Below are positions 1,434-22,938 of a stretch of 33,018 nucleotides of DNA, one piece after another. The notes under the pieces are model-generated. The model saw only the letters and a program-made list of their open reading frames with translations, did no database searches and was not told the DNA's origin. Source of the stretch: Rhodobiaceae bacterium. GTDB lineage: Bacteria; Pseudomonadota; Alphaproteobacteria; Parvibaculales; Parvibaculaceae. Each line of letters opens with the position of its first letter. The stretch's first letter is position 1. The position numbers and the translations under genes are program-made. The stretch lies in NCBI GenBank assembly GCA_027352645.1, contig DAIEIL010000001.1:1-33018 (forward strand), given 5' to 3'.

Positions 1434-1476
1434 CCGGGACGACCCGGTGGATTGAGTTGTTGCCTGGACGGCCAGG
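1434..1476 (+). promoter_or_regulatory. Candidate guanidine-II (mini-ykkC) riboswitch: tandem hairpins CCGGG-ACGA-CCCGG (1434-1447) and CCTGG-ACGG-CCAGG (1463-1476)
   Basis: Two perfect 5-bp stems each closed by an ACGR tetraloop, 15-nt linker, located 5' of UAAP1/UAAP2/urea(guanidine) carboxylase genes. This matches the published mini-ykkC consensus of two ACGR-loop hairpins. Confidence 0.85.
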
Positions 1477-1481
1477 TTTTC

Positions 1482-1500
1482 GGCGCCTCCCCAAGGCGCC
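1482..1500 (+). promoter_or_regulatory. Stem-loop GGCGCCT-ccccа-AGGCGCC between the riboswitch candidate and the UAAP1 ribosome binding site; possible expression platform
   Basis: Inverted repeat ggcgcct/aggcgcc read directly; contains CTCC (1487-1490) complementary to the GGAG at 1511-1514. Confidence 0.45.
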
Positions 1501-3000: not shown

Positions 3001-6000
3001 ATGTTCAAGAAGGTACTGGTTGCGAACCGCGGCGAAATCGCCTGCCGCGTCATTCGCACACTCCGCCACATGGGCGTCAGCTCCGTGGCGGTATATTCCG
3101 AGGCCGATCGCTTCGCGCCGCATGTGGATCTGGCGGACGAGGCTGTCTGCGTCGGCCCCGCCGTGGTGGCGCAGAGCTATCTCGATGTCGATGCCATCAT
3201 CGCGGCAGCAGTTGCGACCGGTGCGGAGGCGGTCCATCCGGGTTATGGGTTCCTGAGTGAGAACCCCGGCTTTGCGCAGGCATTGGCCGACAGGGGCATC
3301 GCCTTCATTGGCCCGCGTCCCGAGCACATGCTCGCTTTCGCGCTGAAGCATACTGCGCGAGAACTCGCTGAGAAGAGCGGCGTTCCGCTGCTTCCCGGTT
3401 CGCCTCTCGTCACCGATCTCGACGATGCGCTCGCCCGCGCGGGTGCCATCGGCTATCCCGTCATGCTCAAGAGCACGGCGGGCGGCGGCGGTATCGGCTT
3501 GCAGCTATGCAAGACTGCGGCAGAACTTCCGCGTCTCTTCGAGACCGTGCAGCGGCTCAGCCTTGCGAATTTCAAGGATGGCGGCGTGTTCCTCGAGAAG
3601 TTCGTCGCCGAGGCGCGGCATATCGAGGTGCAGATTTTCGGCGACGGCAAGGGCAAGGTCATCGCGCTCGGCGAACGCGACTGTTCCGCGCAGCGCCGCA
3701 ACCAGAAGGTGATCGAGGAGACGCCCGCGCCCAATCTGGCGGATGATGTGCGCAGCGCGCTCCACGAGGCGGCAGTGCGTCTCGGCGAAACCGTCTCTTA
3801 TGAATCGGCCGGCACCGTCGAGTTCATCTATGACGCGGTGGAAGAAAAGTTCTACTTCCTCGAAGTAAACACGCGGCTCCAGGTCGAGCATCCCGTCACG
3901 GAGGAAGTGACCGGCCTCGATCTCGTCGAAATGATGGTACGGCAGGCGGCGGGCGACCTTGGTGATCTCGTCCAATATGAGCGTGCGCCGCAGGGTCATG
4001 CCATTGAGGTACGGCTCTATGCCGAAGATCCGGCGCGAAATTTCCAACCTTCCTCGGGGCTTCTCACGCAGGTGAGCTTTCCCGCCGGTGTGCGTGTCGA
4101 TGGCTGGATCGCGACCGGAACCGAGGTCACGCCCTTTTACGATCCGATGCTTGCCAAGATCATCGTCAAGGGAGCGACCCGCGCGGAGGCTGTGGCCAAG
4201 CTTGCGTCCGCGCTCAATCAGAGCGCCGTCTACGGCATTGAAACGAATCTCGACTATCTGCGCCAGCTCGCGGGCGCATGGACCTTTCTCGACGGTGCGA
4301 TGCGCACCTCGTCGCTCGCCCATTTCGATTTCCGGCCTGCGACCATCGACGTCGTCGCGCCCGGCGCGCAATCGACTATTCAGGATTACCCCGGTCGCGT
4401 TGGCTACTGGAATGTCGGGGTGCCGCCATCGGGTCCGATGGACTCGCTGTCCTTTCAGCTTGCCAATCGCCTCGTCGGCAACGAGCCGGGCACGCCCGCG
4501 CTCGAAATGACGCTCGCGGGCCCGACGCTGCATTTCCGCACCGACGCGACCATCGTTCTGGCCGGCGCGCATATGCAGGCCAAAATCAGCGGCGAGCCCG
4601 TGCCGCATTGGCAGGCCTTCGAGGTGAAGCGCGGCCAGACGCTTGAAATCGGGGCGATCGAGGGGCCGGGGCAGCGGGCCTATCTCGCCATTCGCAACGG
4701 TTTCGATGCGCCGGAATATCTGGGCTCGCGCTCGACCTTCACGCTCGGCCGCTTCGGCGGCCACGCAACTGGCGCGCTCAAGACGGGCGACGTGCTGCGC
4801 GTGAACCGTTCGGGTGCGAAGGCGCCTGCGCAACGGGAGGCGCTGCCGCAACTTGACCGGCCGCCGCTCGTCAACGAATGGGAACTTGCTGCTCTCTACG
4901 GCCCGCATGGTGCGCCGGACTATTTCGCCGACGAGGACATCGAGACGCTTTTCAGTGCGACCTATGAGGTTCACTACAATTCGGCACGCACGGGCATCCG
5001 TCTCATCGGGCCGAAGCCCAGGTGGGCGCGCAAGGATGGTGGCGAAGCGGGGCTTCATCCGTCCAACATCCATGACAATGCCTATGCCGTCGGCACGATC
5101 GACTTCACCGGCGATATGCCGATCATCCTAGGTCTCGATGGGCCGAGCCTTGGCGGGTTCGTCTGTCCGGCAACGATTGCCAAGGCCGACCTCTGGAAGA
5201 TCGGGCAGCTGAAGCCGGGCGACAAGGTTCGCTTCCGCCGTGTGAGCGACGAGGAGGCCGAAGCGCTACGCAAGAGCGAGGATGGCTGGCTTTCGACACT
5301 GAAACGTCCGCATCACGGATCGCGCATTCAGGCGCCCGCGAGCCTCGGCAACGCCGTGCTCGGCCGTATCGACGACCTCGATGTCGCCGTCACCTATCGA
5401 CGTGCGGGCGACGATTATCTGCTCATCGAATATGGGCCGATGGTGCTCGACTTCGCGCTGCGCTTCCGGGCGCATGCGATGATGACGGCGCTGGCGTCGA
5501 AGCGCATCCCCGGCATCGTCGAGATGACGCCCGGCATTCGCTCGCTGCAAATCCATTTCGACCCCGACCGTCTGTCGCTGAAGCGGCTGCTTGCGACTGT
5601 GGAAGAAGTCGAGCGACATCTGCCGGCGACGAAGGATATCGAGGTGCCGAGCCGTGTCGTGCGCCTGCCACTTTCGTGGGACGATGCGGCGGCGCAGGAA
5701 GCCGTGCGCAAGTACCAGACGCTGGTGAACCCGGAGGCGCCGTGGTGTCCCTCCAATATCGAGTTCATCCGCCGTATCAATGGACTCGACAGCATCGATG
5801 AGGTGCGCCGCATTCTCTTTGAGGCGGATTACATGGTGCTCGGCCTCGGCGACGTCTATCTCGGCGCGCCGGTGGAAACCCCGCTCGATCCGCGCCATCG
5901 CCTCGTCACCACCAAGTACAATCCGGCGCGCACATGGACGCCGGAAAATGCGGTGGGCATCGGCGGCGCCTATATGTGCGTCTATGGCATGGAAGGGCCG

Positions 6001-6612
6001 GGCGGCTACCAGCTTGTCGGCCGTACCTTGCAGATGTGGAATACGTGGCGCGAGACGAAGAATTTCGAGGCAGGCTCGCCCTGGCTCCTGCGCTTCTTCG
6101 ACCGCATCCGCTTCTTTCCCGTCTCGGCGGAAGAACTGCTCGATATTCGTGCCGCCTTTCCGCATGGCCGCTATGAAGTGGAGGTGGAGGAATCGAGCTT
6201 CCGCCTCAGCGACTATCTCGCCTTCCTCGATCGGAATGCGGACGAGATCGCGGATTTCCGCACGATGCAGCGCCGCGCCTTCGAGGAGGAGCGGCAGCGC
6301 TGGGAAGATCGCGGGCTTTCGATGCAGGCGGCGGAGCCCGATGCGCCGCCTACGCAATCTATCGGCGAGTTGCCTCCGGGCGCGCGTCTCGTCGAGGCGA
6401 GCGTGCCGGGCAACGTCTGGGCGATCAGTGTCGAGCCGGGCGAAGAGGTCGCGCAGGACCAGTCTCTGGTCACGCTTGAATCCATGAAGATGGAAATTGA
6501 AATGCGGTCGCCGATGCGCGGCCGGGTGCATGAGGTGCATTGCGCACCGGGAACAATGGTACAGGCGGGGCAGGCGCTGATGACGCTGTTGCCGCTGGAG
6601 GCGATAGCATGA
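3001..6612 (+). CDS. Urea carboxylase-type enzyme (biotin carboxylase + KipA/KipI-like carboxyltransferase + biotinyl domain); likely guanidine carboxylase
   Basis: BC domain (ANRGEIACRVIRT, KSTAGGGGIGL, RLQVEHPVTEEVTG), KipA-like (IQDYPGRVGYWNVGVPPSGPMD), KipI-like (EYGPMVLDFALRFRAHAMM...GIVEMTPGIRSLQIHFDP), biotinylation motif ESMKMEIEM near the C-terminus. Confidence 0.93.
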   Translation: MFKKVLVANRGEIACRVIRTLRHMGVSSVAVYSEADRFAPHVDLADEAVCVGPAVVAQSYLDVDAIIAAAVATGAEAVHPGYGFLSENPGFAQALADRGIAFIGPRPEHMLAFALKHTARELAEKSGVPLLPGSPLVTDLDDALARAGAIGYPVMLKSTAGGGGIGLQLCKTAAELPRLFETVQRLSLANFKDGGVFLEKFVAEARHIEVQIFGDGKGKVIALGERDCSAQRRNQKVIEETPAPNLADDVRSALHEAAVRLGETVSYESAGTVEFIYDAVEEKFYFLEVNTRLQVEHPVTEEVTGLDLVEMMVRQAAGDLGDLVQYERAPQGHAIEVRLYAEDPARNFQPSSGLLTQVSFPAGVRVDGWIATGTEVTPFYDPMLAKIIVKGATRAEAVAKLASALNQSAVYGIETNLDYLRQLAGAWTFLDGAMRTSSLAHFDFRPATIDVVAPGAQSTIQDYPGRVGYWNVGVPPSGPMDSLSFQLANRLVGNEPGTPALEMTLAGPTLHFRTDATIVLAGAHMQAKISGEPVPHWQAFEVKRGQTLEIGAIEGPGQRAYLAIRNGFDAPEYLGSRSTFTLGRFGGHATGALKTGDVLRVNRSGAKAPAQREALPQLDRPPLVNEWELAALYGPHGAPDYFADEDIETLFSATYEVHYNSARTGIRLIGPKPRWARKDGGEAGLHPSNIHDNAYAVGTIDFTGDMPIILGLDGPSLGGFVCPATIAKADLWKIGQLKPGDKVRFRRVSDEEAEALRKSEDGWLSTLKRPHHGSRIQAPASLGNAVLGRIDDLDVAVTYRRAGDDYLLIEYGPMVLDFALRFRAHAMMTALASKRIPGIVEMTPGIRSLQIHFDPDRLSLKRLLATVEEVERHLPATKDIEVPSRVVRLPLSWDDAAAQEAVRKYQTLVNPEAPWCPSNIEFIRRINGLDSIDEVRRILFEADYMVLGLGDVYLGAPVETPLDPRHRLVTTKYNPARTWTPENAVGIGGAYMCVYGMEGPGGYQLVGRTLQMWNTWRETKNFEAGSPWLLRFFDRIRFFPVSAEELLDIRAAFPHGRYEVEVEESSFRLSDYLAFLDRNADEIADFRTMQRRAFEEERQRWEDRGLSMQAAEPDAPPTQSIGELPPGARLVEASVPGNVWAISVEPGEEVAQDQSLVTLESMKMEIEMRSPMRGRVHEVHCAPGTMVQAGQALMTLLPLEAIA

Positions 6613-8402
6613 AGGGTCTTTGTTTTTCTCTCCCCTCGCTCAGGGCTTCCTATGCGCGTGGCCTGCGCGCCGAGGATGTGGCGGCGGAAGCGCTGAAACG
6701 TGCCGACGCCTATGCCGATCCGGCGGTCTGGATCGCGCGGGCGCCCGCCGATGAGGTCATGGCCCGCGCCCGCGCGCTCGACGCGCTGCCGGTCGCTGCG
6801 CGGGCGAAGCTGCCGCTTTTCGGTGTGCCCTTCGCGGTAAAGGACAATATCGACTGCGCCGGGCTCCCGACGACGGCTGCTTGCCCCGCCTATGCCTTTC
6901 AGCCGAAGGAAAGCGCCTATGCCGTGCAGCGTCTTCTCGATGCGGGTGCGATCCTCATCGGCAAGACCAATCTCGATCAGTTCGCCACCGGCCTCGTCGG
7001 TACGCGCTCGCCGCATGGCGCGCCGCGGTCGGTCTTCAATTCCGAATATATCTCCGGCGGATCGAGCTCCGGTTCGGCCGTGGCTGTCGCGGCGGGGCTC
7101 GTCTCCTTTTCCCTCGGCACGGACACGGCGGGTTCGGGCCGCGTGCCTGCCGCCTTCAACAACATTGCGGGGCTCAAGCCCTCGCGCGGCCTTCTCTCGA
7201 CGCGCGGTGTGCTTCCCGCCTGCCGCTCGCTCGACTGCATCTCGATCTTCGCGTTGACGCCCGAAGACACGGCGGAGGTTTTCAGGCAGGCCGCTATCTA
7301 TGACGATGAAGATCCATACTCGCGGACGCGGCTTGCGGACGAGCCTTTCGTACCTGGCGGCAGTTTCACCTTCGCGGTGCCGCGCGCAGAAGATCTCGCC
7401 TTCTTTGGCGACGGCGAGGCGGAGCGCCTGTTCAACGAGGCCGTGCAGCGTCTGGAAAGCATTGGCGGCCGCGCGCGGCGGATCGACTTCGCACCGTTCC
7501 GCGAGGCGGCCTTGCTGCTGTATGAGGGTCCCTGGGTCGCCGAGCGCACGGTGGCGGTGGGTTCCTTCATCGAGGCGCATGAGGCCGAATGCGATCCGAC
7601 CGTCGCGAAGATCGTGCTCGGTGGGCGCACGCGCAGCGCCGTCGAGACTTTCGAGGCGATGCACAAGCTGCAGGCCCTGCAACGCAGGGTGCTGACGCTC
7701 TTTGCCGGTCTCGACATCGTCGTCGTGCCGACGGCGCCGACGACATACAAGGTGAGCGAACTTGAAGCTGAGCCGATCAAGCTCAATTCGCGCCTCGGCA
7801 CCTATACGAACTTCATGAACCTGCTCGATATGGCAGGGCTTGCGGTGCCTGCGGGCATCGGTGCGACGGGGCTTCCCTTCGGCATCACGCTTGCCGCGCC
7901 CGCCTTCTCGGAGGCGCGCCTTGTCGAGATCGGCGCTCGCTTCACTGCGGCGCTGGCCTTGTCTCCGGGAGCCCCGTTCCTCGGCGGCGCGGAAGCGGAT
8001 GAAGCCTTTCTGGAACTTGCCGTCGTCGGCGCGCATATGAGTGGCTTGCAGCTCAATCATGAACTGACATCGCGCGGGGGCATGTTCGTCGAGCGGACCA
8101 GGACAGCCGCCTCCTATCAGCTCTATGCTTTGGCGGGCGGTCCGCCCTTCCGTCCCGGCCTCGTCAAGTCGGCGACGGGAACGGCGATCGAGCTCGAAGT
8201 CTGGCGGCTTCCGCGCGCGCAAGTCGGGAGCTTCCTTGCCGGAGTGCCACAACCGCTTGTCATCGGCACTGTCGATCTTGCCAATGGCCGCAAGGTGAAG
8301 GGGTTCCTTTGCGAGACGAGCGGTCTTGCGGGCGCGGAGGACATCACGTCCTTCGGCGGCTGGAGGCGCTTTCTCGAACGTGACAAGGCGGCGGCCGGCT
8401 GA
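6609..8402 (+). CDS. atzF: Allophanate hydrolase (amidase-signature domain plus C-terminal domain)
   Basis: ATGA overlap with the carboxylase; amidase signature GGSSSGSAVAVAAGLVSFSLGTDTAGSGRVPAAFNNIAGLKPSRG, catalytic Lys in FAVKDNID; C-terminal extension LQLNHELTSRGG...YALAGGPPFRPGLV. Confidence 0.92.
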   Translation: MKGLCFSLPSLRASYARGLRAEDVAAEALKRADAYADPAVWIARAPADEVMARARALDALPVAARAKLPLFGVPFAVKDNIDCAGLPTTAACPAYAFQPKESAYAVQRLLDAGAILIGKTNLDQFATGLVGTRSPHGAPRSVFNSEYISGGSSSGSAVAVAAGLVSFSLGTDTAGSGRVPAAFNNIAGLKPSRGLLSTRGVLPACRSLDCISIFALTPEDTAEVFRQAAIYDDEDPYSRTRLADEPFVPGGSFTFAVPRAEDLAFFGDGEAERLFNEAVQRLESIGGRARRIDFAPFREAALLLYEGPWVAERTVAVGSFIEAHEAECDPTVAKIVLGGRTRSAVETFEAMHKLQALQRRVLTLFAGLDIVVVPTAPTTYKVSELEAEPIKLNSRLGTYTNFMNLLDMAGLAVPAGIGATGLPFGITLAAPAFSEARLVEIGARFTAALALSPGAPFLGGAEADEAFLELAVVGAHMSGLQLNHELTSRGGMFVERTRTAASYQLYALAGGPPFRPGLVKSATGTAIELEVWRLPRAQVGSFLAGVPQPLVIGTVDLANGRKVKGFLCETSGLAGAEDITSFGGWRRFLERDKAAAG

Positions 8403-16450: not shown

Positions 16451-19420
16451 ATGGACGACCTCCTCAACGAATTTCTCGCTGAAACGGTGGAAGCGCTCGA
16501 ACTGCTCGACAGCGAGCTTGTCGAACTGGAACAGCGCCCCGCCGATCCGGCCTTGCTTGGCAGCATTTTCCGGATCATGCACACGATCAAAGGCACGTGC
16601 GGCTTTCTCGGCCTGCCGCGCCTCGAAGCGGTCGCGCACGCCGCCGAAGACGTGCTGGGCAAGGTTCGCGACGGCGAACTCACGGTTTCAGCAGACACCG
16701 TCTCGCTGGTGCTCGCCGCTCTCGACAGGATCAAGGAACTGATCTCGGATCTTGCCGTCGCGGGCCATGAGCCCGAAGGCAGCGATGACGATGTCATCAT
16801 GTCGTTGCGCGATATGGCCGCCGGCAAGTGGGCGGCGGCAATGTCGGTCGCCGAAGTTATCGAAGAGCCCGCCGAGCTTCCCTCGGTAGACGGGCTCTAT
16901 CAGCGCGTTGGCGGGGCATCCGTCTTCGATACCGCCTGCGAGCAGGCTTGCGCCGAAATGCTCTCCGCGGTCTCGAGCCACCCGGACGCGGAAACCGAAC
17001 TTCTTCATCTTCAGTTCGCGCTGGCCGGAGCCTTCGCCGAAGTGCTCACGGGTTCGGCCGATGCCGCCGCAGACATCGACGGCGTCATCGAGGGCCTTGC
17101 CGCAAATGGCTGGTCGCAGCAGGAGCTTCGCATGCTCCGCGACGAATTCGGCAAGGCGCTCGGGACGCTCGAAGTCGCCGATGCCGATGTTGCCGCCGTT
17201 CTTTCGCGCTTCAACGTCGCGGCGGCGCAGCCCGCCGCTGTAGCGGCACTGGCCGCCGCGCCTGTCATGGCGGCGCCGATTGCGGCGAGGCCGGCGCCCG
17301 CTAAGAAAGAAAAAGCGGAAGAATCCGCCGTGGAAAGCACGCAAGGCGCATCCGCTGCGGCGCAGTCGCAGACCTTGCGCGTCAACATCACGGTGCTTGA
17401 AAACCTGATGAACATGGTCAGCGAGCTGGTGCTGACCCGCAACCAGCTTCTGCAGATCCTGCGCGGTGTCGGCGACAGCCCGTTCGCCGCGCCCCTTCAG
17501 CGGCTCAATCAGGTAACGAGCGAACTGCAGGAAAGCGTCATGCAGACGCGCATGCAGCCCATCGGCAACGCCTGGTCGAAACTGCCGCGTCTCGTGCGCG
17601 ATCTGGCGCAGGAACTCGGCAAGAAAATAGATCTCGTCATGTTGGGCGCCGACACGGAACTCGACCGCCAGATTCTGGAATCGATCCGCGATCCGCTTAC
17701 GCATATGGTGCGCAACTCCGGCGACCACGGCATCGAGACGCCGGAAGAGCGTCGCGAAGCGGGCAAGACGGACCACGGCACGATCCGCCTGAGCGCGCGT
17801 CATGAAGGCGGCCACATCATTGTCGAGGTCGGCGATGATGGGCGCGGCCTTTCGACGAGCCGCATCCGCGCCAAGGCGATCCAGAACGGCCTTGCGACGG
17901 AAGCTCAGCTCGACGGCATGAGCGAGCAGCAGATTCAGCAGTTCATCTTCCGGCCAGGCTTTTCGACCGCGAGCCAGGTGACCAGCGTTTCCGGGCGCGG
18001 TGTCGGCATGGATGTGGTGCGCACCAATATCGAAAAAATCGGTGGCGCCATCGAGTTCTCCTCGACCGAGGGTCAGGGCTCGCGCTTCGTCATCAAGATT
18101 CCGCTCACGCTCGCAATCGTCTCCGCGCTCATCGTCGAGTGCCGTGGCGAGCGCTTCGCCATGCCGCAGAGCAGCGTCGTCGAACTGGTGCGCATCAGTT
18201 CGAAGTCGCCGCAGGGCGTCGAACTCATCAACGGCCATCCGGTCTATCGCCTGCGCGACAGGCTTCTGCCGCTCGTCGCATTGAGCGAACTTTTGAAGAT
18301 CGAGGAGCAGAGCGACGAACCGGCGCAGGAAATCTACGTCGTCGTGACGCAGGTTGGCAGCTTTGCCTTCGGCATCATCGTCGACCGCGTGTTCGACACC
18401 GAAGAAATCGTTGTGAAGCCGACCTCGCGAACGCTCCGCCAGATTTCGCTGTTCTCGGGCACGACGATCCTCGGTGATGGACGCGTTATCATGATCCTCG
18501 ATCCGAATGGCATCGCCGCCGCAACGAGCGGGTCGGCGCAGTCCGAGGCACGGGCGCGGGATGAAGCGCTGGCTGCCAACCGCCAGCATCGCGAGACGGT
18601 CTCGATGCTCGTCTTCCGTGCCGGCGACGACAACGCCAAGGCGGTGCCGCTCTCACTCATCGCGCGACTGGAGGAGTCCGATCTCGCCAATGCCGAACGA
18701 GCGGGCGAACGCACCGTGATCCAGTATCGCGGCGGTCTCATGCCGCTCGTCGGCATCGACGGGACACCTGCGCCGCGCGAGGGCAAGCACCCGATTCTCG
18801 TCTTCACGGAAGGCGAGCGGATGTGCGGGCTCGTCGTCGACGAGGTCGTCGACATCGTCGAGGGTTCGCTCGATCTGCAACTGGTGGGTGGCGCACAGTC
18901 GGGCATTCTCGGCAGTTCGATCATCGCGGGCCGCTCGACCGATGTCATCGATACGGTTCACTATCTGCGCCAGAGCGATGCCGCCTGGTTCGATCTCGAA
19001 ACGCGCGAGGCCTATGGCGCGGAAAGAGAGCGGCGTGTGTTGCTCGTCGAGGATTCGAGCTTCTTCCGCAATCTGCTCATGCCCATGCTCAAGATGGCGG
19101 GCTATCGCGTCACCATCGCTGAGCATGCAGAGGCGGCTCTCGAAATCTGCCGCGACGGCGACGAGTTCGACATTATCGTCTCCGACATCGAAATGCCGGG
19201 CCTTTCCGGTTTCGATCTCGCGCGGACGCTGCGCGCGGAGGAGCGCTGGAAGGATGTGCCCATGGTCGCGCTCTCCTCGCATGCCTCGCCACAGGATTTT
19301 GAACGAGGGCGTCGCTCTGGCTTCAACGACTATGTGACCAAGCTCGATCCGAGGGCGCTTCTGACTTCTCTGTCGCGCGTACTTTCCACGGATGAATATC
19401 ACGAGGAGACGGCGGCATGA
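16451..19420 (+). CDS. cheA: Hybrid chemotaxis histidine kinase CheA (HPt, dimerisation/HATPase, two CheW-like segments, C-terminal receiver)
   Basis: HPt HTIKGTCGFLGLPRLE; LVLTRNQLL; HMVRNSGDHGIETPEERR (N-box); EVGDDGRGL; GRGVGMDVVRTNIEKIGG; C-terminal RRVLLVEDSSFFRNLL...IIVSDIEMPGLSGFDLARTLR. Confidence 0.95.
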   Translation: MDDLLNEFLAETVEALELLDSELVELEQRPADPALLGSIFRIMHTIKGTCGFLGLPRLEAVAHAAEDVLGKVRDGELTVSADTVSLVLAALDRIKELISDLAVAGHEPEGSDDDVIMSLRDMAAGKWAAAMSVAEVIEEPAELPSVDGLYQRVGGASVFDTACEQACAEMLSAVSSHPDAETELLHLQFALAGAFAEVLTGSADAAADIDGVIEGLAANGWSQQELRMLRDEFGKALGTLEVADADVAAVLSRFNVAAAQPAAVAALAAAPVMAAPIAARPAPAKKEKAEESAVESTQGASAAAQSQTLRVNITVLENLMNMVSELVLTRNQLLQILRGVGDSPFAAPLQRLNQVTSELQESVMQTRMQPIGNAWSKLPRLVRDLAQELGKKIDLVMLGADTELDRQILESIRDPLTHMVRNSGDHGIETPEERREAGKTDHGTIRLSARHEGGHIIVEVGDDGRGLSTSRIRAKAIQNGLATEAQLDGMSEQQIQQFIFRPGFSTASQVTSVSGRGVGMDVVRTNIEKIGGAIEFSSTEGQGSRFVIKIPLTLAIVSALIVECRGERFAMPQSSVVELVRISSKSPQGVELINGHPVYRLRDRLLPLVALSELLKIEEQSDEPAQEIYVVVTQVGSFAFGIIVDRVFDTEEIVVKPTSRTLRQISLFSGTTILGDGRVIMILDPNGIAAATSGSAQSEARARDEALAANRQHRETVSMLVFRAGDDNAKAVPLSLIARLEESDLANAERAGERTVIQYRGGLMPLVGIDGTPAPREGKHPILVFTEGERMCGLVVDEVVDIVEGSLDLQLVGGAQSGILGSSIIAGRSTDVIDTVHYLRQSDAAWFDLETREAYGAERERRVLLVEDSSFFRNLLMPMLKMAGYRVTIAEHAEAALEICRDGDEFDIIVSDIEMPGLSGFDLARTLRAEERWKDVPMVALSSHASPQDFERGRRSGFNDYVTKLDPRALLTSLSRVLSTDEYHEETAA

Positions 19421-19890
19421 GCACGCGACAGGAAGACGCAACGCTGGACCGGAACCGAACGGAAGATTTCGTGACCATGTCGATCGGTGGTCAGACCTTC
19501 GGCGTTCCGGTTCTCGATGTGCGCGACGTGCTTGGACCGCAGCGCATCACGCGTGTGCCGCTGGCGCCGCCGGAAATTGCGGGCTCGCTCAATCTTCGCG
19601 GGCGCATCGTCACCGCCGTCAACATGCGTCAGCGCCTCGGCCTTGCCCCGGCGGAACATCCCGAACAGGCGATGGCTGTCGTCGTCGAGCACGAGGACGA
19701 GCATTTCAGCCTTCTGGTGGATGAGGTGGGCGAAGTGCTTCGCCTCTCCGAACGCCAGAAAGACCACAACCCTGCAACGCTCGATCTGCAGTGGCGCCAG
19801 ATCGCCGACGGGCTTTACCGCCTCGACGGCAACCTTCTCATCGTCCTCAACATCGGCGCAGTGCTGGGCGCCATAAGGGCCGCCGCATGA
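19417..19890 (+). CDS. cheW: Chemotaxis coupling protein CheW
   Basis: FVTMSIGGQTFGVPVLDVRDVLGPQRITRVPLAPPEIAGSLNLRGRIVTAVNMRQRLGL; ATGA overlap with cheA. Confidence 0.93.
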   Translation: MSTRQEDATLDRNRTEDFVTMSIGGQTFGVPVLDVRDVLGPQRITRVPLAPPEIAGSLNLRGRIVTAVNMRQRLGLAPAEHPEQAMAVVVEHEDEHFSLLVDEVGEVLRLSERQKDHNPATLDLQWRQIADGLYRLDGNLLIVLNIGAVLGAIRAAA

Positions 19891-19925
19891 GCGCGCTTGC
19901 CGAACAACACCAAGGAGACAGACCC

Positions 19926-20309
19926 ATGGTTGACATGAAGATGCCCATTCTGATCGTGGACGACTACCGCACGATGCTTCGCATCGTCCGCAATCTTCTC
20001 GTCAAGCTCGGCTTCTCGGACATCGACGAGGCGTCGGATGGAAGCCAAGCGCTCTCCATGATGAAGGGCCGCGAATATGGCCTCGTCATTTCCGACTGGA
20101 ACATGCAGCCCATGACCGGCTTCGACCTCCTGAAGAGCGTTCGCGCCGACACTCAACTCAAGGCGACGCCATTCATCATGGTGACGGCGGAGTCGAAGGT
20201 CGAAAACGTCGTCGCAGCGCGTCAGGCGGGCGTCAACAACTACATCATCAAGCCGTTCAGCGCCGCTGTGCTCAAGGCCAAGCTCAAGACCGTTCTGGGT
20301 GAGTTTTGA
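19926..20309 (+). CDS. cheY: Chemotaxis response regulator CheY
   Basis: Single receiver domain: PILIVDDYRTMLRIVRNLL, VISDWNMQPMTGFDLLK, MVTAES, IIKPFSAAVLKAKL; ATG at 19926 with AGGAGA upstream. Confidence 0.93.
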   Translation: MVDMKMPILIVDDYRTMLRIVRNLLVKLGFSDIDEASDGSQALSMMKGREYGLVISDWNMQPMTGFDLLKSVRADTQLKATPFIMVTAESKVENVVAARQAGVNNYIIKPFSAAVLKAKLKTVLGEF

Positions 20310-20827
20310 TGGGCCCGGATGACGCGTCCGCGCGGGTCAGGAAGTTGACGCAGGAATGCGTCGACATCGTGCGGACGATCCTTGTCGCTCGCCGCGAAAT
20401 GGGCAAGCTGCATGATCCGTCTCTCAGGGAAATACATCTGCCCCGCGCAAGCGAGGAAATCGGCGCCATCCTTGCGCTGACCGAGTCCGCGACGAACGAC
20501 ATCATGCTTGCCGCGGAAGACATGATGTCCGTCGACTTCAAAAATCCGGAACTCGCTGCCGAAATCGTCAACGATCAATGCATGAAGATCTTCGAGGCCT
20601 GCTCCTTTCAGGACATTACAGGCCAGCGCATCTCCAGTGTGCTGAAGACGCTTCAGCTCGTAGAGAAGAAGATCGAGGATCTCGAAGGCGCATGGTCAGG
20701 CGCGTCATCCTCGATCCAGCCTGCGGCGGAAGCCGCGCCGGTCGATCCCGACGCGGCGCTGCTCAACGGCCCCGCGCTCGAAGGCGAGGGCATTCAGCAG
20801 GACGATATCGACAGGCTGTTTGCCTGA
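20309..20827 (+). CDS. cheZ: CheZ-type CheY-P phosphatase
   Basis: Helical protein with the motif ACSFQDITGQRISSVLKTLQLVE and C-terminal acidic peptide IQQDDIDRLFA; sits between cheY and cheB. Confidence 0.87.
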   Translation: MGPDDASARVRKLTQECVDIVRTILVARREMGKLHDPSLREIHLPRASEEIGAILALTESATNDIMLAAEDMMSVDFKNPELAAEIVNDQCMKIFEACSFQDITGQRISSVLKTLQLVEKKIEDLEGAWSGASSSIQPAAEAAPVDPDAALLNGPALEGEGIQQDDIDRLFA

Positions 20828-20878
20828 GAATGAATAGGTCGCGTCCCGTTGCAGGCGCGGCGCGAAGTGGGGCAGGAC

Positions 20879-22030
20879 ATGGCGGATAAACTTCTGAGCG
20901 CGCGATCCGCTCCTGCCGCAGGGCGAGCTACAGCCGATGTGGCGGGCGATCCCTGGCGCGTCATGATCGTCGACGACTCGTCCGTCGTTCGCGCGGTGAT
21001 CGCGCGGTCGCTCGAACAGGACCCGACCATCAAGGTCGTGTCCTCGGTGGCGAATGGCGCGCTGGCGTTGAAGGTTCTGCCGACGCTTCAGGTTGACGTC
21101 ATTCTCCTCGATATCGAAATGCCGGAAATGGATGGCATCGAAGCGCTGCCCCGGCTTCTGGCGCTGCGTCCGGGCGTCAAGGTCATCATGGTATCCTCGC
21201 TGACGCGGCGCAGCGCCGAGGTCAGCCTGCGCGCCGTGGCGCTTGGCGCTGCCGATTATGTGCCCAAGCCCGTGAGCGGTCTCAGCACTGCCAATGATTT
21301 CCGCGCCGAGCTTCTGGCGAAGGTGAAGGCGCATGCCGCGCGGGCGCGCCGGGGCGTTGGAGCCGCGCGTCCGGCAGCGGCGAGTGCGCCGCGCGTCGCG
21401 GGCGTGGCGCCCGCGGGCCCGATCGCGCTTCGCAAGGCGATCGTCGAAAAGCCTACCGTCATTGCCATCGGAAGCTCCACCGGCGGGCCGCAGGCACTTT
21501 CCGAAGTGCTGAAGTCGATCGGCCCCGGCGTAACGCAACCCATCGTCATCACGCAGCACATGCCGCCGACATTCACGGCCATTCTCGCCGAGCACATGAC
21601 GCGCTATGCGGGTCGCCTCGCAGCCGAAGCGCAGGACGGCGAAGCGCTGAAGCAGGGCCGTATCTATGTCGCGCCGGGTGGCTATCACATGATCGCAGAA
21701 TCCAGCGCCGCAGGGGTGGTGCTGCGCCTCAGCGATGCGCCGCCGGAAAATTCCTGCCGTCCCGCCGTCGATCCGATGATGCGGAGTCTTTCCGCGATCT
21801 ATGGACGCAAGCTGCTCGCCGTCATTCTGACGGGCATGGGCTATGACGGACTGAAGGGCTGCCAGGTCGTCGCCGCATCCGGCGGCGGGGTCATCGCACA
21901 GGATCAGGCGTCGAGCGTCGTCTGGGGAATGCCGGGCGCGGTCGCGCAGGCGGGTATCTGCAATGCGGTTCTGCCACTCGGCGAAATCGGGAAGACGATC
22001 GGGCGTATCGCCCGCGGGGAGGGCTTGTGA
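20879..22030 (+). CDS. cheB: Chemotaxis protein-glutamate methylesterase CheB
   Basis: Receiver domain (VMIVDDSSVVRAVI, ILLDIEMPEMDGIEALP) plus methylesterase motifs IGSSTGGPQAL, ITQHMPPTFT, ILTGMGYDGLKG. Confidence 0.96.
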   Translation: MADKLLSARSAPAAGRATADVAGDPWRVMIVDDSSVVRAVIARSLEQDPTIKVVSSVANGALALKVLPTLQVDVILLDIEMPEMDGIEALPRLLALRPGVKVIMVSSLTRRSAEVSLRAVALGAADYVPKPVSGLSTANDFRAELLAKVKAHAARARRGVGAARPAAASAPRVAGVAPAGPIALRKAIVEKPTVIAIGSSTGGPQALSEVLKSIGPGVTQPIVITQHMPPTFTAILAEHMTRYAGRLAAEAQDGEALKQGRIYVAPGGYHMIAESSAAGVVLRLSDAPPENSCRPAVDPMMRSLSAIYGRKLLAVILTGMGYDGLKGCQVVAASGGGVIAQDQASSVVWGMPGAVAQAGICNAVLPLGEIGKTIGRIARGEGL

Positions 22031-22938
22031 ACAGCGCTGATTTCGAGTTCCTGCGCGACTTTCTCTATCAGCGTTCCGGTCTCGCGCTGACACCGGACAA
22101 GTCCTATCTGCTGGAGAGCAGGCTCGCGCCCATCGCGCGCAAGGAGCGTCTGGCTTCGCTTTCGGCGCTGGTCGCGCAGTTGCGGCAGCGCGCCGACGAG
22201 GCGCTGACGATCCAGATCGTCGAGGCGATGACGACCAACGAAACGCTGTTCTTCCGCGACCGCTGGCCCTTCGAGCGCTTCAGCGCGATGATCCTGCCGA
22301 CGTTGATGGAGCAGAACAAGGCGACGCGCCGCATCCGCATCTGGTGCGCGGCCTGTTCGAGCGGGCAGGAGCCTTACTCTCTGGCCATGCTTCTGTCGGA
22401 AGCTTCCGCAAAGCTTGCAGGCTGGACCGTCGAGATCACTGCGACCGATATTTCCGAGGAGATGCTCGCGCGTTGCCGCCGGGGCTGGTACTCGACCTTC
22501 GAGGTTCAGCGCGGTCTGCCGGCCGACCTGCAAAAGAAGTATTTCACGAAGGAAGGGGACGGCTGGGTCATCAGCGAGAAGCTCAGGGCCATGGTGAAGT
22601 TCCGTAACTTCAACCTGCTTGCAGATCCGGCCAGCATCGGCCTTCACGGCCTGGACCTCATCTTCTGCCGCAATGTGCTGATCTATTTCGACGAAGCGAC
22701 GCGCAAGAAGGTTTTTGCCGGCATGGCCAAGGCGACGAAAGCCGACGGCTATCTCTGCCTCGGCGGTGCGGAAACCGTGATCGGCATTTCAGATGCCTTC
22801 CGCATTCTGCCGGGCGAGCGCGGGCTCTTCGCCGTCAATGCGCAGGCAGGCGGCGTCCAGCCAGTCTTGTCAGCGCCCGCGGCTGTATACCGGCCGGCTC
22901 CTGCGCCCGTCCTTGTCGCCGCCGCCCTGCGGCGTTGA
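22027..22938 (+). CDS. cheR: Chemotaxis protein methyltransferase CheR
   Basis: RIWCAACSSGQEPYSLAMLL, TATDISEEMLARCRRGWYS, LDLIFCRNVLIYFDEATRKKVF; start overlaps the cheB stop. Confidence 0.95.
   Translation: MNSADFEFLRDFLYQRSGLALTPDKSYLLESRLAPIARKERLASLSALVAQLRQRADEALTIQIVEAMTTNETLFFRDRWPFERFSAMILPTLMEQNKATRRIRIWCAACSSGQEPYSLAMLLSEASAKLAGWTVEITATDISEEMLARCRRGWYSTFEVQRGLPADLQKKYFTKEGDGWVISEKLRAMVKFRNFNLLADPASIGLHGLDLIFCRNVLIYFDEATRKKVFAGMAKATKADGYLCLGGAETVIGISDAFRILPGERGLFAVNAQAGGVQPVLSAPAAVYRPAPAPVLVAAALRR

Follow-up and report, generated by a model that had tools for sequence, protein, structure and literature searches.

What controls the genes in the middle of an operon, at a point where two small hairpins separate an ABC transporter gene from the genes that follow? 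We addressed this question in a Rhodobiaceae bacterium, in a stretch of 33,018 nucleotides referred to here as the window, in which the genes and hairpins of the operon lie on the forward (+) strand. The first-pass annotation had read the hairpins as a guanidine-II (mini-ykkC) riboswitch inside the operon, and we analysed the gene content, the hairpins, the Rfam scores and the leaders of related genomes.

Gene content of the operon

The operon starts with an ABC transporter permease gene whose 5' part is cut by the contig start (2-613; PF00528, 78.9 bits), followed by the gene of an ABC transporter ATP-binding protein (624-1421; PF00005, 116 bits). After the hairpins come the genes for UAAP1 (1521-2345; TIGR03425, 271 bits, cut-off 206) and UAAP2 (2357-2983; TIGR03424, 343 bits, cut-off 285), predicted to be the two subunits of a CgdA/CgdB carboxyguanidine deiminase, for a carboxylase annotated as urea carboxylase (3001-6612; TIGR02712, 1866 bits) and for allophanate hydrolase (6609-8402; TIGR02713, 774 bits, cut-off 511). 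The last four proteins all score above the curated cut-offs. The correspondence of UAAP1/UAAP2 to the carboxyguanidine deiminase CgdA/CgdB was reportedly established by Schneider et al. 2020, which PMC11410670 cites.

Guanidine carboxylases are told from urea carboxylases by Asp at the positions of K. lactis residues 1330 and 1584 (PMC11410670). In the window carboxylase, Asp701 occupies the site of K. lactis Asn1330 and Asp951 that of K. lactis Asp1584, which makes it a guanidine carboxylase by this signature. The binding protein of the P. sedimenti operon scores 467 bits against TIGR03427, a putative urea ABC transporter binding protein. Deiminase, carboxylase signature, allophanate hydrolase and transporter together indicate that guanidine import and degradation are the most likely role of the operon. 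This gene content also confirmed the earlier placement of the element between the transporter genes and the UAAP1/carboxylase genes.

Elsewhere in the window, a chemotaxis cluster at 16451-22938 (CheA-like with Hpt, CheW and receiver domains; CheB; CheR) is followed by ABC transporter genes of the branched-chain amino acid type. At the far contig end, 30498-31799 holds another biotin-carboxylase-like region, which shares 44% identity with the N-terminus of the carboxylase.

Twin ACGR hairpins upstream of UAAP1

The element lies between the ABC transporter ATPase gene and the UAAP1 gene. The two hairpins previously described, CCGGG-ACGA-CCCGG at 1434-1447 and CCTGG-ACGG-CCAGG at 1463-1476, are located exactly there, with the tetraloops ACGA at 1439-1442 and ACGG at 1468-1471 in both the sequence and the RF01068 alignment, and 44 nt separate position 1476 from the UAAP1 ATG at 1521. 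The sequence, the RF01068 alignment and covariation define a first hairpin, P1, at 1431-1450 (CUGCCGGG-ACGA-CCCGGUGG; 8 pairs, two of them G-U) and a second, P2, at 1462-1477 (GCCUGG-ACGG-CCAGGU; 6 pairs, the outermost G-U). The spacing of 15 nt given before is right for 5-bp stems, but since both stems extend further, the true linker (1451-1461, AUUGAGUUGUU) is 11 nt long; it contains no CUCC or UCCU that could serve as an anti-Shine-Dalgarno sequence. Guanidine-II linkers range from 7 to 40 nt (PMC7544219), and both values fall in this range.

Twin ACGR hairpins with stems of at least 5 pairs occur exactly once in the window, and in none of 400 dinucleotide-preserving shuffles of it. The overall stability of the leader is unremarkable (z -0.99), and the predicted minimum-energy fold of one folded segment opens P2.

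Scoring against the Rfam model

The first-pass annotation had proposed a covariance-model search as a check, and its outcome was divided. RF01068 (Guanidine-II) ranks first among 4,227 Rfam families at the element and aligns with it end to end, scoring 29.5 bits (E 1.6e-4 on 181 nt), but this is short of the curated gathering score of 32 bits and, as a result, a default Rfam scan of the window gives no match above that score. After this blank scan, lower-threshold scans and scans of orthologues were used. The element is the only Rfam match in the whole 33-kb window up to E 0.5 (E 0.03), and in an RF01068 search of the genome of the window organism it is the top match (E 4.1e-4), the next one having an E-value of 0.08. 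Orthologous leaders from P. sedimenti (33.0 bits) and Methylocella (two leaders, 41.9 and 44.6 bits) all pass the cut-off.

At the gathering score, RF01068 misses seven of the ten twin-hairpin leaders scanned (L010, L012, L013, L016, L018, L021 and L025). The model thus under-calls this clade and, since most of the clade is missed, the class is probably more numerous than published counts suggest.

Conservation and covariation in related leaders

A search with the UAAP1 protein produced a set of 17 loci, mostly from Parvibaculum, with Methylocella and other alphaproteobacteria. Twin ACGR hairpins lie directly upstream of UAAP1 in 16 of them, locus L023 being the sole exception, and a strict search of both strands found none elsewhere in 192,821 bases. 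The ACGR loops are kept in the alignment of orthologous leaders. P. sedimenti (L009) is a close relative, its UAAP1 and permease being 91% and 97% identical to those of the window. Linkers of about 30 nt are found in many Parvibaculum leaders, and some linkers have a predicted hairpin of their own.

To describe the variation in the stems, we aligned 20 distinct P1 plus P2 sequences without gaps, pooling leaders of the guanidine genes with those of an exporter-like gene. Standard pairs fill 98.3% of the pair cells, and two-sided (compensatory) changes occur in 8 of the 12 pairs, that is, in every pair that varies. The covariation score is 0.452, compared with 0.137 +/- 0.022 for shuffled alignments and at most 0.077 when the alignment is slid. 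No variation is seen in the four loop-proximal pairs or in the ACG of either loop, and the loop-closing G-C pairs are invariant in all 31 leaders examined. The leaders were collected by their ACGR loops and paired stems, so that loop conservation and part of the pairing follow by construction; the changes of pair type do not. In crystal structures of the class, the loops pair with each other through their C and G bases, and guanidinium is stacked against a conserved loop-adjacent guanine (PMC5486947). The ACGR loops and closing G-C pairs agree with these requirements, so that conservation falls on the positions that matter for function.

In the same family, other guanidine-II elements stand ahead of a gene with a product starting MAWIYLLIAS, which, as read from the DNA, resembles the small multidrug resistance (SMR/Gdx-like) guanidine exporters. 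The covariance model, the orthologous leaders, the covariation and the gene content all support the guanidine-II (mini-ykkC) identity of the element. The features shared with the RF01068 class are two GC-rich ACGR hairpins with G-C closing pairs, a variable linker and a site just upstream of the Shine-Dalgarno sequence and of guanidine-metabolism genes; those that differ are the score of the window copy slightly under the gathering score, the linkers of about 30 nt in many Parvibaculum leaders and a third hairpin before the Shine-Dalgarno sequence.

A guanidine-I element upstream in relatives

Analysis of the related genomes also revealed a guanidine-I riboswitch (RF00442), a class with a different fold, in 10 of 10 loci scanned and in 26 of 41 family genomes. 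In P. sedimenti it lies between the binding-protein and permease genes (L009:4012-4128), about 1.78 kb before the guanidine-II element. It is not visible in the window contig, presumably because the contig starts too late; if the P. sedimenti layout is transferred, we would expect it about 350-470 nt beyond the contig start. The genome of the window organism, which is 58% complete, yielded no guanidine-I element, and its presence in this organism is thus suggested only by the relatives. The first-pass annotation had also proposed that the element controls the downstream genes separately from the transporter genes. A control point at this position is supported, but the transporter genes are probably not outside guanidine control, since the relatives carry guanidine-I upstream of them, which points to an operon with two guanidine checkpoints.

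A class I element at the operon start combined with an internal class II element has been published for Vreelandella (PMC12508155) and for the enterobacteria Raoultella and Klebsiella (PMC12186494), and in V. boliviensis both RNAs were probed and both bind guanidine (PMC12508155). The operons studied here share with these an importer under class I (in the relatives), a class II element inside the operon, ahead of degradation genes, and the guanidine carboxylase pathway. In the published operons, class II immediately precedes the carboxylase gene (in V. boliviensis it sits between cgdB and gca). In the window it comes sooner, after the ABC ATPase gene and ahead of UAAP1, a small difference that places the deiminase genes, too, downstream of class II. 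The position of class I between the binding-protein and permease genes of P. sedimenti is also unlike that of the published class I at the operon start.

After the guanidine-I aptamer of P. sedimenti (L009:4012-4220), GCCAATCCTCC is complementary to a downstream GGAGGACTGGC across the Shine-Dalgarno sequence, and no terminator was found after the aptamer on that strand. This guanidine-I element may act on translation rather than through a terminator. In P. indicum, a single leader ahead of UAAP1 carries guanidine-I (L010:5672-5794) and guanidine-II (5868-5935) in tandem with 73 nt between them, and the adjoining upstream gene is NikR-like rather than a transporter gene. The literature searched contained no description of such a tandem.

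A rival reading is that the aptamer is real and that its natural inducers include methylguanidine or other small guanidino compounds besides guanidine, giving class II a wider pool than class I. We regard this as a serious possibility, although we lean against it. In the V. boliviensis operon, class II does not discriminate between guanidine and methylguanidine and class I does, and a 2-oxoglutarate/Fe(II) oxygenase, of the type that acts as methylguanidine demethylase in that species (PMC12508155), is encoded just upstream of the operon in P. sedimenti and in genomes G037 and G032; but this gene is outside the window contig and was seen in few relatives only.

The oxygenase gene of P. sedimenti (L009:1493-2647; the other two are in loci L060 of G032 and L061 of G037) adjoins an uncharacterised gene (L009:669-1565), and the best PDB match of the oxygenase is 9ovh, an entry named ethylene/succinate-forming enzyme (E 1e-60). 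The two genes possibly encode a methylguanidine-demethylating pair, MgdH/MgdL, or another guanidine-releasing enzyme.

Expression platform

Returning to guanidine as the inducer, we consider it highly probable that the element at 1431-1477 is a guanidine-II (mini-ykkC) riboswitch, which would turn on translation of the degradation half of the guanidine operon, comprising the predicted CgdA/B deiminase, the guanidine carboxylase and allophanate hydrolase. By analogy with solved members of the class, guanidinium would cause the ACGR loops to kiss through their C and G bases; this would lock P1 and P2 and leave the Shine-Dalgarno sequence of UAAP1 (AGGAG, 1510-1514, 6 nt before the ATG at 1521) accessible. 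The guanidine-I element found upstream in relatives would add a first checkpoint.

A translational ON switch is the best-supported model: the sequence has nothing like a terminator, the Shine-Dalgarno sequence starts 33 nt past P2, and guanidine-II riboswitches have been described as translational switches (PMC12186494). Scans for terminators and promoters around the element were empty, and since no terminator was found, we do not propose a transcription-terminator platform. In the predicted folding of the window leader, the Shine-Dalgarno sequence is paired with a mean probability of 0.54 and its partners are scattered, none dominant, so that no particular anti-Shine-Dalgarno sequence is supported; none is conserved among the leaders compared.

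The third hairpin, GGCGCCU-CCCCA-AGGCGCC (1482-1500), has 7 pairs and no U-run after it. It is found in most Parvibaculum leaders, and a compensatory change from G-C to A-U distinguishes the window (GGCGCCU/AGGCGCC) from P. sedimenti (GGCACCUC/GAGGUGCC). It is absent outside Parvibaculum-type leaders, Methylocella included, and from L021, L022, L024 and L025, which makes it an addition specific to the lineage and not a feature of the class; in L021, L022 and L024 only 21-23 nt separate P2 from the ATG. The first-pass annotation had this hairpin supply a CUCC that pairs with the GGAG of the Shine-Dalgarno sequence and is released by guanidine. A CUCC is indeed present at 1487-1490, and likewise in the P. 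sedimenti leader, but comparison of 21 leaders led us to reject this platform as very unlikely: CUCC is not conserved, since 16 of them, with L030 from the same clade among these, have none between P2 and the ATG; in the others it is partly inside a stem of 7-9 bp, and four leaders have no such hairpin at all.

We also considered, without claiming it, a candidate switch strand formed by a 7-nt complementarity between the 3' arm of P1 (1444-1450, CCGGUGG) and 1499-1505 (CCACCGG); by eye it is kept with one G-U in L030 and at 6 of 7 positions in L009. In L013, L014, L015, L018, L027 and L028 a small predicted hairpin of GCGC type, not shared with the window, holds the Shine-Dalgarno sequence in its loop.

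That the hairpins arose by chance, or are a protein-binding or mRNA-processing pair between two cistrons with no link to guanidine, is barely credible: short hairpins rich in GC are frequent in genomes of high GC content and the RF01068 score is under the Rfam threshold, but the shuffles never produced the twin, its site upstream of UAAP1 is the same across Parvibaculum and Methylocella, its loop-closing pairs do not vary (in leaders picked, admittedly, by a similar criterion), and the operon has guanidine genes.

Implications for guanidine control in Parvibaculum

On good support, the guanidine-II element of the window adds one more example to a known riboswitch class; the type of operon is known as well, and the arrangement has been described before, in other bacteria. 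A bolder reading, in which Parvibaculum has a two-layer guanidine control split at another gene boundary than the published ones, class II senses a wider guanidino set (e.g. methylguanidine, handled by the upstream 2-oxoglutarate oxygenase) and P. indicum has a single-leader two-class sensor before UAAP1, is one that we put forward tentatively and think unlikely to hold. A literature search on Parvibaculum and guanidine riboswitches returned nothing, including binding or expression data on any Parvibaculum copy. The leaders described here add a clean and taxonomically coherent set to the guanidine-II class. They imply that Parvibaculum may be able to import guanidine and assimilate it as nitrogen, and the operon is a natural case for asking why two guanidine sensors, differing in class and specificity, share one transcript.
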